From Acidobacteriaceae bacterium (GTDB taxonomy: Bacteria > Acidobacteriota > Terriglobia > Terriglobales > Acidobacteriaceae), in the NCBI GenBank assembly GCA_030040425.1, contig JASHTS010000044.1, positions 1 through 33,996 on the forward strand: a DNA stretch of 33,996 bases, given 5' to 3'. Shown here piece by piece: positions 189 to 33,434 of this stretch (position 1 is the first letter of the stretch; each line of letters opens with the position of its first letter). The notes beneath the pieces were generated by a model, which saw only the letters and a program-made list of their open reading frames with translations, made no database searches and was not told where the DNA came from. A program made the translations under genes and the position numbers.

Positions 189-1337
189 CTACACGGCGGC
201 GAGGGCCTGGTCGAGGTCGGCGATGAGGTCTTCCTTGTCTTCAATTCCTATCGACAGGCGGATGCGGCCGTCGTTGATGCCCATGCGGCGGCGCACCTCT
301 TCGCTCACCGAGCCGTGGGTGGTGGTGGCCGAGTGCGAGGCGAGCGACTCGACGCCGCCGAGCGACTCGGCATTCAGAAAGATTTTGAGGGCCTTGAGGA
401 AGCGCGCACATTCGTCGCGCGACTTGAGCTCGAAGCTCATCATGGAGCCGAAGCCCTTCTGCTGGCGGCAGGCGAGCTCGTACTGAGGATGGCATTTCAG
501 GCCGGGATAAGCGAGCTTCCGTACCTTGGGATGCGTGGAAAGGAATTCCGCCACGGCGCGGCCATTTTCTTCGTGTTTCTGCACACGCAAAGGGAGGGTC
601 TTGATGCCGCGGAGAACGAGGAAGCACTCGAAGGGCGACATGACCGCGCCTTCGGCCTTCTGCACGAGGATGAAGCGCTCTTTCTGCTCCTGCGTGGAGG
701 TGATGAGCGCGCCGCCCAGGCCGTCGGAGTGGCCGTTGAGGTATTTCGTGGTGGAATGCATCACGATATCGGCGCCGAGCGCAATGGGACTCTGCAGCAC
801 CGGCGAGAGAAAGGTGTTGTCCACGCTGACTTCGGCGCCGTGGGCGTGCGCGATCTTCGCAATGGCGCCGATATCGGCGAGCACCATGAGCGGGTTCGAG
901 GGCGTCTCGAGATGGATGAGCTTGGTATTCGGCTTGATGGCGGCTTCGACGGCGGCGAGATCGCTGGTGTCGACGTACTCGATCTCGATGCCGGAGCGGA
1001 CGACGATCTCGTCGAAGAAGCGGACGGTGCCGGCATAGACGTCAGCCGAGCAGAGGAGATGGTCGCCGCAGCGGAGCATGGCGACAAGGCCGCGGATGGC
1101 GGCCATGCCGGAGGTAAAGGCGTGCCCGCTCACGCCGCCTTCGAGAGCGGCGAGCGCGGTCTCCAGGCGGTCGCGGGTGGGGTTTCCGGCGCGGGAATAG
1201 TCCCAGCCGCGGTCGGTGCCCACGCCGGTGAGCTCAAAGGTGGAAGAGAGATAGACGGGGACGTTGACCGCGCCCGTGAGGGGATCGGGATGCTGGCCGG
1301 CATGGACGGCGAGTGTCGGGTACTTGTACTGGGCCAT
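189..1337 (-). CDS. Trans-sulfuration PLP enzyme (cystathionine gamma-synthase/lyase type)
   Basis: This 382-aa protein belongs to the Cys/Met-metabolism PLP family. It handles sulfur transfer between cysteine, homoserine esters and homocysteine in the cytoplasm. Visible family marks are the N-terminal TLAVHAGQHPDPLTGAV stretch, the YSRAGNPTRDRLE segment, the VDNTF motif and HSTTKYLNGHSD, whose lysine should bind PLP; the C-terminal SIGIED motif is also typical. Length is normal for the family. Sequence alone does not separate cystathionine gamma-synthase, gamma-lyase and O-acylhomoserine sulfhydrylase, so no symbol is given. The ATG at 1337 starts the conserved N-terminus, but no Shine-Dalgarno is visible before it. 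It stands alone: no sulfur gene is adjacent, and a palindromic element follows the stop. Confidence 0.93.
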   Translation of the reverse strand: MAQYKYPTLAVHAGQHPDPLTGAVNVPVYLSSTFELTGVGTDRGWDYSRAGNPTRDRLETALAALEGGVSGHAFTSGMAAIRGLVAMLRCGDHLLCSADVYAGTVRFFDEIVVRSGIEIEYVDTSDLAAVEAAIKPNTKLIHLETPSNPLMVLADIGAIAKIAHAHGAEVSVDNTFLSPVLQSPIALGADIVMHSTTKYLNGHSDGLGGALITSTQEQKERFILVQKAEGAVMSPFECFLVLRGIKTLPLRVQKHEENGRAVAEFLSTHPKVRKLAYPGLKCHPQYELACRQQKGFGSMMSFELKSRDECARFLKALKIFLNAESLGGVESLASHSATTTHGSVSEEVRRRMGINDGRIRLSIGIEDKEDLIADLDQALAAV

Positions 1338-1625: not shown

Positions 1626-1736
1626 CTACAAATGCCTCGACGGGTCCCCGTAGATGGCGTCGTAGGCCTTCTCGGCCAGGCGGCGAAGGCGGGCGGGGTT
1701 TTCGAGGTCTTCAGGGCGCGGCTCGGGGTCGGGCAT
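1626..1736 (-). CDS. Possible small protein, 36 aa
   Basis: An ATG at 1736 opens a 36-codon frame ending in TAG at 1626. The product is very charged: MPDPEPRPEDLENPARL at the start, then RRLAEKAYDAIYGDP, which could form a short helix. Codon use (GCC, GAG, AAG, TAC, GAC, CGC) matches the real genes around it, with C or G at most third positions, which random intergenic DNA here does not show. Against it, there is no good Shine-Dalgarno and the family is not one I recognise. Function unknown. A 6-bp GC hairpin with a TTC loop lies upstream at 1787-1801. Confidence 0.4.
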   Translation of the reverse strand: MPDPEPRPEDLENPARLRRLAEKAYDAIYGDPSRHL

Positions 1737-1827
1737 GATCGCAGGGATTCTGGAGAGATTTTAGCGGAAACACGGTAAATTCTTTCGCCCCCTTCGGGGG
1801 CTTCCGGTCATGAATGGAGGCGAGAAC

Positions 1828-1986
1828 CGGCAGGTGGCGCGGTCAAGTTCGCCACTCTGACTTCTCCCCAATGGACTGTGCCCCATTCAAAACGCGCATT
1901 TTGCGTTTTGAGTGGGAAAGCGCGTAGGACTCAGCCTAGACCGATACCGCCCGCTCATCGCAAAGAACGCGATGAACGGGGCACAG
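1828..1986. repeat. REPIN-like element: transposase-less copy of the RAYT unit
   Basis: The core at 1876-1986 is bounded by 9-bp perfect inverted ends, CTGTGCCCC (1876-1884) and GGGGCACAG (1978-1986). Each end carries a hairpin: 1882-1895 pairs with 1903-1916 (14 bp with one G.T, 7-nt loop), and 1950-1961 pairs with 1969-1980 (12 bp, one mismatch). Read from the outside, both ends share TGAAYGGGGCACAG, so they are two REP sequences in inverted orientation, the arrangement called a REPIN or BIME. Bases 1862-1924 are identical to 2652-2714, and 1949-1986 differ from 3269-3306 at one base, so this is the neighbouring transposase element with its gene missing. Weaker similarity extends left to about 1828. 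Confidence 0.85.
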
Positions 1987-2039
1987 CCGGTTCCAACCCA
2001 GTGTCTCAGGACGGCCCTTGCCCGGGCACCTGCCCGATT

Positions 2040-2606
2040 CTAGGACTTGAGAAAATGTCTCCGCCATAGCCATACCATCGTCAGAATAATAATGCCCGGG
2101 ATTGTCGTGACGGCAGCCCGCTCCGCCGCCAGTGGATATGCTCCCTCAGCCAGTTCCAACCCAACCTCCGGAATTCCGATTTCGAGTCTTGCTTCTCTGG
2201 CTGGACCGTTCACCTCGTGGTTTACGTCAACGATAATTCTTTGTCGCATGCCTCGCTGAGGGTGGTAGTCAGTCAGCTTAATAATGTTGGCACCATCAAG
2301 TTCTCTGTTATATGCTCCTTGATCAATTACTACGTCTTGGCTATCAACGATTCGCCAGTCCAAATCTACTTGCGTATCTCTGCTCGGAAATTTAGGCCAA
2401 TAGAGGGTCACTTGGTAGGTGCCATCCAGTTCGGGATCAAAGTAAGCCGACACAAATTGGCCCCGTTGGAGGACGATCTGCTCCGATATCGGCTGAGAAT
2501 CATGCGTTCGCGCCCAAAGAAAGAGGCCGACAAATGGGAGCAGGCCCAAACCGACTAAGACCCATCCGAAACCGATTACAGTTCTTGTGGACAGCCATGC
2601 CTTCAT
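2040..2606 (-). CDS. Hypothetical membrane-anchored protein, 188 aa
   Basis: I do not recognise the family. There is one hydrophobic segment at about residues 9-30 and a second at about 162-182 followed by WRRHFLKS. The stretch between them, about 130 residues and rich in beta-type sequence (QVTLYWPKF, VDLDWRIVDSQDVVID), would lie outside the membrane, so the protein is probably anchored at both ends with an extracytoplasmic beta domain. The ATG at 2606 has a strong AGGAG 7 nt upstream. The gene is visibly less GC-rich than its neighbours, with more A/T at third positions. It lies between two direct copies of the REP/RAYT element: one ends about 50 bp after the stop, the other begins about 13 bp before the start. 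Recent acquisition is plausible. Confidence 0.8.
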   Translation of the reverse strand: MKAWLSTRTVIGFGWVLVGLGLLPFVGLFLWARTHDSQPISEQIVLQRGQFVSAYFDPELDGTYQVTLYWPKFPSRDTQVDLDWRIVDSQDVVIDQGAYNRELDGANIIKLTDYHPQRGMRQRIIVDVNHEVNGPAREARLEIGIPEVGLELAEGAYPLAAERAAVTTIPGIIILTMVWLWRRHFLKS

Positions 2607-2618
2607 GACCGCTCCTTT

Positions 2619-3306
2619 CGGCAGGTGGCCGGGTCACGTTCTTTCACCCTGTTCTCCCCAATGGACTGTGCCCCATTCAAAACGCGCATTTTGCGTTTTG
2701 AGTGGGAAAGCGCGATCTCTCGCCTTTCTTCCACCGTACTCCCTCGGGGAGCTGATTGCCGCGCCGAAACGCCGTCCACTGCGATTCGATTTCGACCGTC
2801 CCCCGCAGGCCAGTCGCGTAGTGCCGGTAGCTCGACCATGGCCAGTCTTCGGGTTTTGCAACCAGCCCGCGCACCACCGGATTGCGATGGATATAGCGGA
2901 TCACCTCAGAGCGAGCCTCTTCTCCGTGGACGTTGCTGTCGTAATAGCGGTCTTGCCAGAACTTCTCGCGGCGCCCTCTCAGCTTGCGCGAAGTGATCTG
3001 CTTAAGCGCCTTGAGAAATTGCGCAAGCAGAATACCCCTCGGCTCGTTGACCAGCAGGTGAACGTGCTCGGGCATCAAAACGTAAGCATAAACCCGCGCC
3101 TGATGCCGTGCGCGCGCCTGCTCCAGCACGGCTTCGACTGTCTCCCTGGCTCCCGGCACCTCCAGCAGCGGGATACGGTGAAAACAACTGAAGGTGACGA
3201 AGTGCAACGACTCGGCCGTCTGGAACCGCTTCAAGCCGCTCGGCATGGACCCATCTTAGCCCCACAGCGCCCGCTCATCGCTAAGAACGCGATGAACGGG
3301 GCACAG
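2619..3306. mobile_element. RAYT unit: Y1 transposase gene flanked by REP ends
   Basis: The unit has the same two ends as the element at 1828-1986, in the same orientation: a left REP hairpin at 2672-2706 with CTGTGCCCC at 2666-2674, and a right REP hairpin at about 3270-3300 with GGGGCACAG at 3298-3306. Between them, in place of the short spacer of the solo copy, lies the transposase gene. This matches the known RAYT system, in which a single-copy tyrosine transposase is bracketed by the REP sequences it is thought to process. The left boundary at about 2619 is taken from the start of similarity to the solo copy and is approximate. Confidence 0.8.
2677..3246 (-). CDS. REP-associated tyrosine transposase (RAYT, IS200-like Y1 family)
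   Basis: This 189-aa HUH/Y1 single-strand DNA nuclease is expected to cut and join REP hairpins. The HUH metal site is His61-Val-His63 (MPEHVHLL), and the likely nucleophile is Tyr118 in the RYIHRNPV helix. It is followed by the family signature PEDWPWSSYRHY. The N-terminal HFVTFSCFHRIPLL strand is also typical. Length fits RAYTs (about 150-250 aa). The reading frame runs into the left REP hairpin, so the last ten residues (PTQNAKCAF region) are encoded by the repeat and the stop lies in its stem. The start at 3246 lies close to the right REP. It is transcribed toward the 188-aa gene 70 bp downstream. All key residues are present, so it may be active. Confidence 0.93.
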   Translation of the reverse strand: MPSGLKRFQTAESLHFVTFSCFHRIPLLEVPGARETVEAVLEQARARHQARVYAYVLMPEHVHLLVNEPRGILLAQFLKALKQITSRKLRGRREKFWQDRYYDSNVHGEEARSEVIRYIHRNPVVRGLVAKPEDWPWSSYRHYATGLRGTVEIESQWTAFRRGNQLPEGVRWKKGERSRFPTQNAKCAF

Positions 3307-3373
3307 CTTTTATAGCTCTACGCGCTGGCGATGACCGGGCCAACTGCCCTGAAGGCCACTGCTCCCTCCGCGA

Positions 3374-4480
3374 TTACTGGGCGACCTGGGCGGTTTGCTT
3401 GGGGCGGCGGGTTACGGGGAAATATCCGGTGCGGGTGCGGACGGTGAGCGGGCCCAAGCCTTTGGCTTCAGCCTTGACCTCGATGCGGCGAAAGCCGGGA
3501 TCGGACATGGGCTTGGTGGAGCGGTAGCCGAGAGTGTACTGGCTGCGGATGTCGCGGGCGACCTCGGCGGCGATCTGATCGACTTCTTCAATGGATTTGG
3601 GGAAGAAGGCCATGCCGCCGGTCTCCGTGGAGAGCATTTCGAGAGCGCGGCGGGCGTGGCGGACCTCGGCGCGACTCATCTCATCGCCGAAGAGAAGGCC
3701 GATGGAGTAGATGACCGGGCCGGAGAGCTCCTGCACGCGGTGGATGGTCTGCTCGAGGTTCAGCGTGGAAGCATTGTCTTCGCCGTCGGTGATGAGGACG
3801 AGAACCTGCTTGGGACGGCTGCCCTCTTCGACGAGATGATCGGCGGAGGCGACGACGGCGTCGTAGAGAGCGGTGCCGCCCTTCGAGTCAATGTGGGCGA
3901 GCCCGTCTCGCAGCTTGGCCGGATCGGAGGTGAAGTCGGCGTCGATAAAGGCTTCATCAGAGAAATTGACGACGAAGGCCTGGTCCTGGGGATTGGAGGC
4001 AAGGACGAGATCGAGGGCGCTCTTGTTGACCGAAGGACGCTTGCGGTACATGGAGCCTGAGTTGTCGATCACGAGGCCGATGGAGACGGGAAGATCGGTG
4101 TGCTGGAAACTCAGGAGGGTTTGTTTGACGCCGTCTTCGTAGACCTGGAAATCGTCCTTGGTGAGATTCTGGACGATCCTGTTGCCGGCGAGGACGGTGG
4201 CATTGAGGACCACTTCGTCGACATCGGTTCGCAGGACGTAGCCCTCTTTGCCCTGTTTCGGCAGAGGCGCGGCCGCAGCAGGCTCGACGCCGTCGGGCGA
4301 GCGGACGGGATCGGCGTCGTGCGGAAGAGTGGGCGCCTGGGACCCGGACTGGGCGGAGACGGGCGCCTGCGCGGCGAGCGGAAGCGCGGGCGCGGAAACA
4401 GAGGAAAACGCAAGCGCTGCCGCAGCGAACAGAGCCAACCTGAAGATGTTCGGCGGCGGAACGTTATTGCAAGGGCGCAT
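3374..4480 (-). CDS. Secreted VWA-domain protein, acidobacterial type (1)
   Basis: With the ATG at 4480 the protein has 368 aa: a signal peptide (hydrophobic LALFAAAALAFSSVSAPAL ending near AAQA), a Pro/Ala-rich linker, a beta segment (LNATVLAGNRIVQNL, DFQVYEDGVKQ) typical of the 'VWFA-related Acidobacterial domain' family, then a von Willebrand A domain. The MIDAS motif is intact, DNSGSM from Asp139, with the later VLITDGEDN strand. The C-terminus ends in VRTRTGYFP, shared with the gene upstream. Function in the family is unknown; extracytoplasmic metal-dependent protein binding is an inference. Its start overlaps the end of the upstream VWA gene by 17 bp, so the two form an operon. A longer start at 4498 is possible; neither has a clear Shine-Dalgarno. 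Confidence 0.88.
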   Translation of the reverse strand: MRPCNNVPPPNIFRLALFAAAALAFSSVSAPALPLAAQAPVSAQSGSQAPTLPHDADPVRSPDGVEPAAAAPLPKQGKEGYVLRTDVDEVVLNATVLAGNRIVQNLTKDDFQVYEDGVKQTLLSFQHTDLPVSIGLVIDNSGSMYRKRPSVNKSALDLVLASNPQDQAFVVNFSDEAFIDADFTSDPAKLRDGLAHIDSKGGTALYDAVVASADHLVEEGSRPKQVLVLITDGEDNASTLNLEQTIHRVQELSGPVIYSIGLLFGDEMSRAEVRHARRALEMLSTETGGMAFFPKSIEEVDQIAAEVARDIRSQYTLGYRSTKPMSDPGFRRIEVKAEAKGLGPLTVRTRTGYFPVTRRPKQTAQVAQ

Positions 4481-5618
4481 AGTAACCGGTGCGAGCATAT
4501 ACAGAGAGTGGAGGCAGCCCCGGAGGAGGATTTACCTTCACTTTCACTTTACGCCACTTGCCATCCTTGGCCATATCGGAAGGGTTGTAACCGATGACGT
4601 ACTGATTCCGCAGCTCGGTGGAGATCTTTTCGGCGATGTCGCTCATCTCGTCGACGTCGTCGACGCGGAACATGCGGCCTCCGGTGGAATCGCTGAGGTC
4701 TTCGAGCAGCTGCGGTCCGGCGCGCTCCTCAGGGGTGGGAGCATAGGGATCGAAGATGCCGATGGAGTAAATTTCGACGTCGGACTCGCGGACCTGGGCG
4801 CGGACTTCACCTTCGGTGTAGCGGGAGCGGTTGTCGCCGCCGTCGGAGACGACGAGCAGCGCCTTGCGCTCATGGCGGGCGTCTTTCATCTTGGCCACGC
4901 CGTAATAAATTGCGTCAAGAAGCGCGGTGCGATGGCCGGCGTGCACAGTGGCGAGGCGCGCCTCAATATCGTCAGCAGAGCTGGTGAAGTCTTCGATGAG
5001 CTCGGGGCGATCATTGAAGCCGATGACGAAAAACTCGTCCTGGGGATTCGCAGTTTTGATGAATTGCAGAATGGCATCTTTGGCGCGCGCGAGCTTGGAA
5101 GTCATGGAGCCGGAGAGATCGAAGATGATGCCGATGGAGACGGGCGCGTCTTCACAGGCGAAACTGGTGATCTTCTGCTCGGAGTTGTTTTCGAAGACCT
5201 GGAAGTCATTCTGCTCGAGGCCGGTGACGAGGCGGTTCATGGGATCGGTGATGGTGACGGGGACGAGCACCAGGTTGACGTCCATACGGATGAAGGAACC
5301 CGGGTGAACCCGCAGGGCCTTGATGCCGGTCTCCGGAGGCGCTTCGGCGCCCTTGGGCTCGGTGGTGGACGAGGTGGCCGTGGCGGGCGGCTGGACGTGC
5401 ACACGGTTCAACTGGTCGTCCTGGGCCCGGATTTGCGGCGCAAGGCAGAAGAGAGCCGCGAAAGCGCAAAGGAGAGCGAAGATCAGGGTGAGCTGGGCAG
5501 GAATTGCTTGCCACACGGAGGAACGAGCAGGTGCGAGACAGGAGAGCATTCCCGGGCGGACCAGATTCAGGTTGCCGCCCCCTTGCGGCGATACCCTCGG
5601 TCGGGAATGCGTAGTCAT
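4464..5618 (-). CDS. Secreted VWA-domain protein, acidobacterial type (2)
   Basis: From the ATG at 5618 the protein has 384 aa. About 40 residues precede a strong hydrophobic segment (LTLIFALLCAFAALFCLAP, then QIRAQ), which may be a signal peptide with a long n-region or a signal anchor. The beta segment VNLVLVPVTITDPMNRLVTG with DFQVFENNSEQKI marks the acidobacterial VWA family. The VWA domain follows with an intact MIDAS, DLSGSM from Asp167, and LLVVSDGGDN. The end, VYARTGYYAP, closely resembles that of the downstream partner, so the pair probably arose by duplication. The frame is open up to 5750, but 5618 leaves room for the TGC-TACTAT promoter-like site at 5645-5653. A start at 5549, nearer the hydrophobic segment, is the alternative. 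Confidence 0.85.
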   Translation of the reverse strand: MTTHSRPRVSPQGGGNLNLVRPGMLSCLAPARSSVWQAIPAQLTLIFALLCAFAALFCLAPQIRAQDDQLNRVHVQPPATATSSTTEPKGAEAPPETGIKALRVHPGSFIRMDVNLVLVPVTITDPMNRLVTGLEQNDFQVFENNSEQKITSFACEDAPVSIGIIFDLSGSMTSKLARAKDAILQFIKTANPQDEFFVIGFNDRPELIEDFTSSADDIEARLATVHAGHRTALLDAIYYGVAKMKDARHERKALLVVSDGGDNRSRYTEGEVRAQVRESDVEIYSIGIFDPYAPTPEERAGPQLLEDLSDSTGGRMFRVDDVDEMSDIAEKISTELRNQYVIGYNPSDMAKDGKWRKVKVKVNPPPGLPPLSVYARTGYYAPLQ

Positions 5619-33238: not shown

Positions 33239-33347
33239 GGGGCTAAAGCCCCGTCGTCTTTCTGCTTTCAGCCGCCCGCTCCTTCCGGCGGGCTAAAGCC
33301 CGCTTCTCCCTTTAGACGGCCGCGTTCGGCACGGCTGAAGCCGTGCC
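33239..33347. repeat. Cluster of perfect palindromes between sufU and sufT
   Basis: Three perfect palindromes lie in about 110 bp: GGGGCT-aa-AGCCCC (33239-33252), GCGGGCT-aa-AGCCCGC (33288-33303) and GGCACGGC-tgaa-GCCGTGCC (33328-33347). The first two share the core GGCTAAAGCC. GCCCGC at 33274-33279 could also pair with GCGGGC at 33288-33293, giving a competing fold. The third is the inverted counterpart of the palindrome at 89-108, including the adjoining CTTTC. These are dispersed repeat units; in the suf transcript they would form strong hairpins between two genes. Confidence 0.75.
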
Positions 33348-33434
33348 CTTTCAAAGCCGATCCCGTAGCCGCCTCATTTCGACGGTGACGGCTCGCGATC
33401 GCCAGTCGCTTTCAAAGCCCAACTTGTAACCGCC

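Follow-up and report, generated by a model that had tools for sequence, protein, structure and literature searches.

In the stretch of DNA analysed here (the window, 33,996 nt from an Acidobacteriaceae bacterium), the segment 1829-3348 is most likely a lineage-specific island composed of a RAYT (REP-associated tyrosine transposase) unit, an accessory membrane-protein gene on the 3′ side of the RAYT and a REPIN/MITE with ends of the same kind. We tentatively favour, with a probability of roughly 0.4, the reading that the island is a RAYT-driven composite and that the membrane-protein gene would have arrived as cargo between element ends. This reading is plausibly slightly ahead of an independent landing of the parts, which is nearly as likely. 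The window lies in a 4.56-Mb assembly of 312 contigs that is 75% complete. All genes concerned are on the minus strand, in the order VWA gene, RAYT, 188-aa gene, ORF remnant and CGS gene (Table 1), and the VWA protein belongs, as judged from a profile match, to the acidobacterial family TIGR03436.

Table 1. Features of the island and of its neighbours in the window
Feature	Position	Strand	Basis and remarks
CGS: Cys/Met-metabolism PLP enzyme, cystathionine gamma-synthase type	189..1337	-	downstream neighbour in gene order; profile match
36-codon remnant of an ORF of ~83 aa	1626..1736	-	read from the sequence, compared with relatives
RAYT-less REPIN/MITE (A1-B1), oriented like the RAYT unit	1829..2034	.	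terminal motif and hairpins
A1 REP hairpin, identical to the A2 hairpin	1878..1916	+	repeat comparison
B1 REP hairpin	1950..1984	-	hairpin scan
188-aa gene: N-terminal TM-like helix, beta-sandwich of ~95 residues, C-terminal TM-like helix	2040..2606	-	ORF, homologues, AlphaFold2 model
Shine-Dalgarno-like GAAAGGAG and spacer, the sole DNA between RAYT unit and ATG	2607..2619	-	read from the sequence
Complete RAYT unit (A2 end - RAYT - B2 end), inverted terminal motifs GGCAGGTGGCC / GGCAGTTGGCC	2620..3348	.	terminal motif and hairpins
A2 REP hairpin, GTGCCCC-ATTCAAAACGC...GCGTTTTGAGTGGG	2668..2706	+	RNA fold z -5.0
RAYT, uninterrupted 189-aa ORF, stop inside the A2 hairpin	2677..3246	-	ORF and profiles
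B2 REP hairpin, GTGCCCC-GTTCATCGC...GCGATGAGCGGG	3270..3304	-	RNA fold z -5.5
VWA protein (TIGR03436)	3374..4498	-	upstream neighbour in gene order; profile match

A preliminary description of this DNA had stated that the 188-aa gene fills the space between two copies of an element, and the fit is even tighter than claimed: the two elements are 585 nt apart, made up of the gene (567 nt), 5 nt behind its stop codon and 13 nt ahead of its ATG. The right element indeed begins 13 nt before the ATG, at 2620, but the left one, said to end about 50 bp after the stop codon, ends at 2034 and only 5 nt after it. The deviating base composition is confirmed as well. The gene has a GC content of 0.510 and a GC3 of 0.524, compared with 0.644 and 0.849 for CGS and 0.636 and 0.792 for VWA1, the neighbours ranging overall from 0.60 to 0.64 in GC. 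When the whole 34 kb were scanned in 669 segments of 567 nt (step 50; mean 0.638, sd 0.033), the minimum of 0.511 fell on the gene, so that no part of the window is richer in AT. Near both contig ends, at 81-109 and 33327-33355, there is an inverted repeat of 29 nt (97% complementary) which contains a short palindrome.

Since distant homologues exist, we regard the ORF as a gene. The single-sequence AlphaFold2 model of the protein consists of helix, beta-sandwich and helix and is of low confidence (mean pLDDT 64.5), and a fold search with this model returned generic Ig-like sandwiches only (best E 1.2e-3). Known domains were considered and rejected, Golvesin_C being matched only at E 0.11 and NF006749 at E 0.016 with 15 bits against a cut-off of 119. 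The assignment as a defence gene was likewise dropped, as neither the 188-aa protein nor any of nine ORFs on the 3′ side of RAYTs was matched by PADLOC at E 0.01.

The RAYT scores above the cut-offs of both profiles used (NF047646, 106 bits versus 80; Y1_Tnp, 51.5 versus 23), and its translation contains MPEHVHLL and VIRYIHRNP, which we take to be the HUH motif and the downstream catalytic Tyr motif of RAYTs. All four bulged hairpins, A1, B1, A2 and B2, have the head GTGCCCC[A/G]TTCA and the tail TGAG[T/C]GGG in common. The ends of the elements were set by the terminal motif GGCAGGTGGCC or close variants, found about 50 nt outside each hairpin; this motif recurs at many, though not all, elements of this kind in the genus and we infer that it is the physical end of the element. 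As GGCAGGTGGCCC with up to 2 mismatches also arises by chance (up to 5 times in 11 kb), bracketing is claimed here only for loci which have a hairpin too; the distal end of one locus (L213) is the terminal motif alone.

The two direct copies which had been described are real insofar as 63 nt are 100% identical between A1 and A2 (1862-1924 and 2652-2714) and about 97 nt are 91% identical, but they differ in kind, the right one being arm A2 of a complete RAYT unit and the left one arm A1 of a RAYT-less pair. Towards the outer ends A1 and A2 drift apart, and B1 and B2 share 87% identity over 61 nt, beyond which they diverge. Because both pairs differ outside the hairpins, the MITE does not represent a new copy of the ends of this RAYT. 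A1-B1 is a pair of inverted REPs without a transposase and is present in more than one copy in related genomes, as a MITE in genome G050 is 82% identical to it over 158 nt and poorer relatives are found in G072, G062 and others. In its own assembly, an A element is found at this locus only, along with three B-like pieces elsewhere (E <= 0.01), and four of the 6 exact REP heads of the whole assembly are at this locus. The three B-type pieces are located at C32:13256, C27:1891 and C45:13275, and two of them adjoin DNA similar to that just outside B2.

We compared the VWA site with the corresponding sites of the relatives. VWA matches were obtained in 77 of the 80 genus genomes, including the own one, and the loci of 69 of the 76 other genomes were inspected, of which 64 were informative (the sequence extending 1.4 kb or more past VWA). 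Neither the 188-aa gene nor a RAYT lies beside VWA at any of the 69 loci, the 64 informative ones included. Given the absence in 64/64 informative loci, a gain of the island on this lineage is probable. It had been asked whether relatives have the locus without the block, and with respect to gene and RAYT these 64 loci do; a homologue of the 188-aa protein at this position without REPs, which had been named as the refuting case, was not found among the VWA loci of the relatives. One genome per species was used, and neither the order of the gain events nor a single-event arrival of gene, RAYT and MITE can be read from this comparison.

The CGS gene follows within reach in 35 of the 64 loci and is out of reach in 29. 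Its distance from VWA is at most 250 nt in 19 of these 35 loci, 250-900 nt in 7 and more than 900 nt in 9, six of the nine long gaps holding an ORF which is presumably cysteine-synthase-like. In several relatives the small ORF, of about 83 aa, comes directly after VWA, at a distance of about 13-70 nt in G029, G061, G006, G038 and G064; the window keeps only 36 codons of this ORF, so that the VWA-CGS site has been disturbed beyond the insertion itself. The two relatives that share 87% identity with the window in VWA differ here: G029 has no insert after VWA, its contig ending before CGS, and G050 has a different neighbour.

Besides the own genome, six further members of the genus have homologues of the 188-aa protein with 31-38% identity, which makes 7 of the 199 genomes, and a profile search matched 12 of 249 genomes of the order, several of them weakly. 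The preliminary description had proposed to look for RAYT/REP units beside such homologues. There are none: ten homologue loci (flanks of about 1.5 kb in four cases and of up to about 6 kb in six, L044 among the latter being near a contig end; six weaker profile matches were left out) gave no RAYT hits and no REP heads, and a hairpin scan of six of these ten loci found no REP. The sparse family together with the result of 0/10 rules out that the protein is a dedicated partner or passenger of RAYTs. AT-richness is not a constant property of the family either, because the GC content of the matched homologue parts spans 0.44 to 0.61. At L044 (G036:C176, 379-918) there is an array of Rhs tips, and the homologue directly follows an Rhs-repeat ORF within it; immunity genes are usually located behind Rhs tips. 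This context and a Rap1a-like cargo protein in G017 are suggestive, and no more than suggestive, of an immunity-type role of the 188-aa protein.

RAYTs are frequent in the genus, with matches at E 1e-30 or better in 53 of 79 genomes and up to seven per genome. In named genomes we obtained 66 RAYT relatives, 48 of them from Acidobacteria by title, including the 43 best-listed, and the rest mostly from Planctomycetota. Many related RAYTs are likewise flanked by inverted REP hairpins such as A2 and B2, and at many loci extra REPs are found near the RAYT. Moreover, the layout of RAYT, AT-rich same-strand ORF and further element arm with hairpin recurs, with other genes, at several related RAYTs. 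On the 3′ side and ahead of the arm there are AT-rich same-strand ORFs of 122 and 70 aa in G004, a frame-broken lipoprotein-like ORF in G050, AT-rich same-strand ORFs in Acidicapsa dinghuensis, Rap1a-like and Sel1 proteins in G017 and a 323-aa ORF in REEB336, whose RAYT has no typical A end. At one locus (L217) the cargo is situated between two RAYT units; a resemblance of this cargo to the 188-aa protein (hhalign probability 36, E 3.7e-4; blast E 0.004) is too weak to be claimed. In Acidicapsa dinghuensis we also observed a RAYT ORF that holds an in-frame REP element (L227, 4001-4603).

We then asked whether the AT-rich DNA prefers one side of the RAYT, a flank being called AT-rich when its GC content is at least 0.05 below background. 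In addition to the window, the first set contained 43 of the 48 loci from Acidobacteria. An initial test over all RAYT loci, unsplit, gave AT-rich 3′ flanks in 14 and AT-rich 5′ flanks in 6 of 35 (p = 0.059), and only after this value had been seen were the loci split by end type. A GGCAGG-type A end is present in 21 of the 44 loci, and in the 18 testable ones the 3′ flank is AT-rich in 12 and the 5′ flank in 1 (Wilcoxon 2.1e-4, window included), compared with 5/17 and 3/17 in loci without this end. A second set of 40 further loci, analysed by nearly the same rule (slightly wider end-distance limits), gave 15/20 versus 1/20 with the A end (3.4e-4) and 6/17 versus 4/17 without it. Four loci occur in both sets (L393/L233, L387/L234, L397/L236 and L403/L238); with these removed from the second set the counts are 15/19 versus 1/19 (3.6e-4) with the end and 5 versus 4 of 14 without. 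The first set minus the window, under the rule of the second, yields 10/13 versus 1/13 (1.2e-3) and 6 versus 3 of 20, respectively. In both sets taken together and deduplicated the 3′ side is AT-rich in 27 of 37 loci with this A end, the base rate being 25 equally AT-rich among 328 overlapping 600-nt windows farther off.

The element arms are distributed in the same manner. REP arms with hairpin and end motif occur at 0.689 per kb near the 3′ side, 0.055 per kb near the 5′ side and about 0.02 per kb farther off, i.e., about 12 times more densely near 3′ than near 5′ (14 in 20.3 kb versus 1 in 18.2 kb; window included in all these values); counted by locus, there are arms near 3′ in 7/18 and near 5′ in 1/17 (Fisher 0.041). 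As the AT-rich flank is one-sided, a process tied to the right end of the RAYT is favoured. The asymmetry might also be a composition effect, if RAYT units inserted behind stop codons in gene direction and the 3′ side were AT-rich spacer. A coding-like same-strand ORF does end at most 350 nt upstream of the RAYT at 12 of the 22 loci scanned, and some AT-rich flanks (e.g., L221, L224 and L255) have no same-strand ORF; since RAYT units thus often start just behind such an ORF, intergenic DNA may account for some of the GC asymmetry. As an explanation of the wider pattern, however, we consider the composition effect very improbable: an ORF heuristic finds same-strand ORFs of at least about 110 aa, with GC1 above GC2, in many AT-rich flanks, and the asymmetry is absent from RAYTs that lack this end type.

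Two further sites at which a RAYT is accompanied by cargo could be compared with relatives. In G013 a RAYT with cargo lies between DUF2127 and mraZ, which are 2921 nt apart. The other loci returned for this gene pair, 29 in number, all lack RAYT and cargo, and 23 of them have the two genes at a distance of about 380-810 nt (measured between alignment edges). In G017 the distance from ubiD to the next gene is 3006 nt with a RAYT and two cargo genes. The 29 other ubiD loci returned all lack this cargo, the next gene following after about 10-115 nt in 15, after about 1 kb in two and being out of reach in 12. The two cases of about 1 kb, G037 (L340) and G065 (L365), contain other AT-rich small ORF pairs without a RAYT, and the ubiD site of G057 has a RAYT remnant without cargo. 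Possibly the site downstream of ubiD is an integration hot spot. The kbl-glnD site of G004 and the recX site of G050 decide nothing, because their flanking genes are not adjacent in the relatives.

How could the gene have come to lie between the elements? On the composite reading the RAYT, a single-strand HUH/Y1 enzyme, would occasionally pass over its own A end and pair its 5′ (B) end with the outer end of a MITE lying downstream, and the DNA between these two ends would be carried along with the RAYT. In this way the 188-aa gene would have been delivered as cargo to the site between VWA and the small ORF. A single joint movement of gene and elements, by this route, is what we infer from the common absence of gene and RAYT, the gaps in G013 and G017, the one-sided AT-rich flanks and element arms, the cargo between two RAYT units in L217 and the scarcity of the elements in this genome, all of which make the composite plausible. 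The passenger gene in a composite module that had been proposed thus gains from the co-absence in 64 loci and from the recurring layout; no cargo, however, was found at two RAYT loci. Among 81 non-redundant 3′ flanks there was no cargo common to different loci. Matches between flanks were mostly short and REP-derived or RAYT-derived, L235 and L236 are relatives at the same locus, and a 55-aa match between L400 and L401 (E 4e-18), about 1 kb or more past the RAYT, lacks an explanation. Because of the absence of shared cargo and because the homologue loci examined are free of RAYTs and REPs, the movement as one composite is unproven.

The same absence of common cargo, together with the RAYT-free gene gains at the ubiD site, favours independent events at a permissive site, which we hold to be a close competitor. 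The AT-rich gene would have come by horizontal transfer and recombination, and RAYT unit and REPIN would have landed on either side of it, selection sparing the coding DNA; as REPINs multiply near their RAYT, a neighbouring gene would end up bracketed. The homologues without REPs fit this course of events, as do the extra REPs near the RAYT at many loci, for which PMC8266576 offers a parallel in the local REP concentration of Marinomonas, and the element abutting a start codon elsewhere too (recX in G050). Independent landing alone, however, does not predict AT-rich DNA and further elements almost only 3′ of the RAYT, and the co-absence at three sites counts against it.

The bracketing might instead matter for expression, the RAYT unit having replaced the promoter of the gene and the A2 hairpin in the RAYT-gene mRNA shielding or insulating the gene downstream. 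At most 13 nt upstream of the gene are its own, and it is for this reason probably read from transcription of the RAYT unit or from further upstream; judged from the sequence, the A2 hairpin would lie in the RAYT-gene transcript. The short distance from unit to ATG on the same strand, the RAYT stop codon inside a stable hairpin and the absence of a sigma-70-type site on the strand of the gene in a scan of 1700-3420 agree with this idea, the scan covering sigma-70-type sites only. We nevertheless judge it quite improbable, since at several related RAYTs the 3′-side ORFs start 100-300 nt after the unit.

To return to the composite, it would be a bolder step to regard the Acidobacteriaceae RAYT group with GGCAGGTGGCC ends as an active, directional gene-capture transposon which passes its own right end and proceeds to the next REP-type end. 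This we think rather unlikely; if it were true, AT-rich accessory genes would be spread, and a transposase thought to be domesticated would build genomic islands.

The island resembles the REPtron, i.e., a RAYT with REPINs (TnpA-REP), in its Y1 HUH transposase, in the flanking inverted bulged REP hairpins and in the RAYT-less pairs elsewhere in the genus, and also in the crowding of REPs near the transposase, as reported for Marinomonas in PMC8266576. Unlike there, the hairpin foot is GTGCCCC, with CTGTGCCCC in four of four copies, and does not conform to GTAG (GT[AG]G); REP classes without the GTAG tetranucleotide are described in PMC6006769. Further differences are the several RAYT copies per genome (up to 7), the three tested sites which are empty in relatives and the AT-rich accessory ORFs on the 3′ side of the RAYT. 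TIRtrons (TIRYT) are known from the same phylum (T. saanensis, K. versatilis, A. capsulatum and G. mallensis), and there too inverted repeats, some of which form families, flank a tyrosine transposase (PMC3733652), as the inverted terminal motifs at 2620 and 3348 flank the transposase gene here. Their motif GGGGWSAS, which is given for some, not all, TIRs in that paper, is not matched by GGGGCACA beside each hairpin. The TIRtron description consulted (PMC3733652) mentions neither cargo genes nor one-sidedness, the comparison with the present elements being one of descriptions.

With the composite transposon (IS-gene-IS) the island shares suitably oriented elements with common ends that bracket a gene, and L217 has cargo between two RAYT units. 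It differs in that the bracketed block is not found at more than one site (own genome, 81 flanks) and that its movement is putative. Cargo carried by a RAYT was not found in the open-access literature searched. PMC8266576 describes RAYTs as mostly single-copy and housekeeping-like and sees no evidence of tnpAREP mobility; against this description of a RAYT without mobility of its own stand the RAYT units at three tested sites which are empty in relatives. Should RAYT and cargo move together, they would represent a class of transposon that moves genes by a Y1 single-strand enzyme; should the RAYT only mark landing sites, it would still serve as a flag of recently gained genes in these genomes. 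The recurrence of AT-rich DNA on the same side of related transposases hints that a transposase family regarded as tame either marks accessory genes or moves them.
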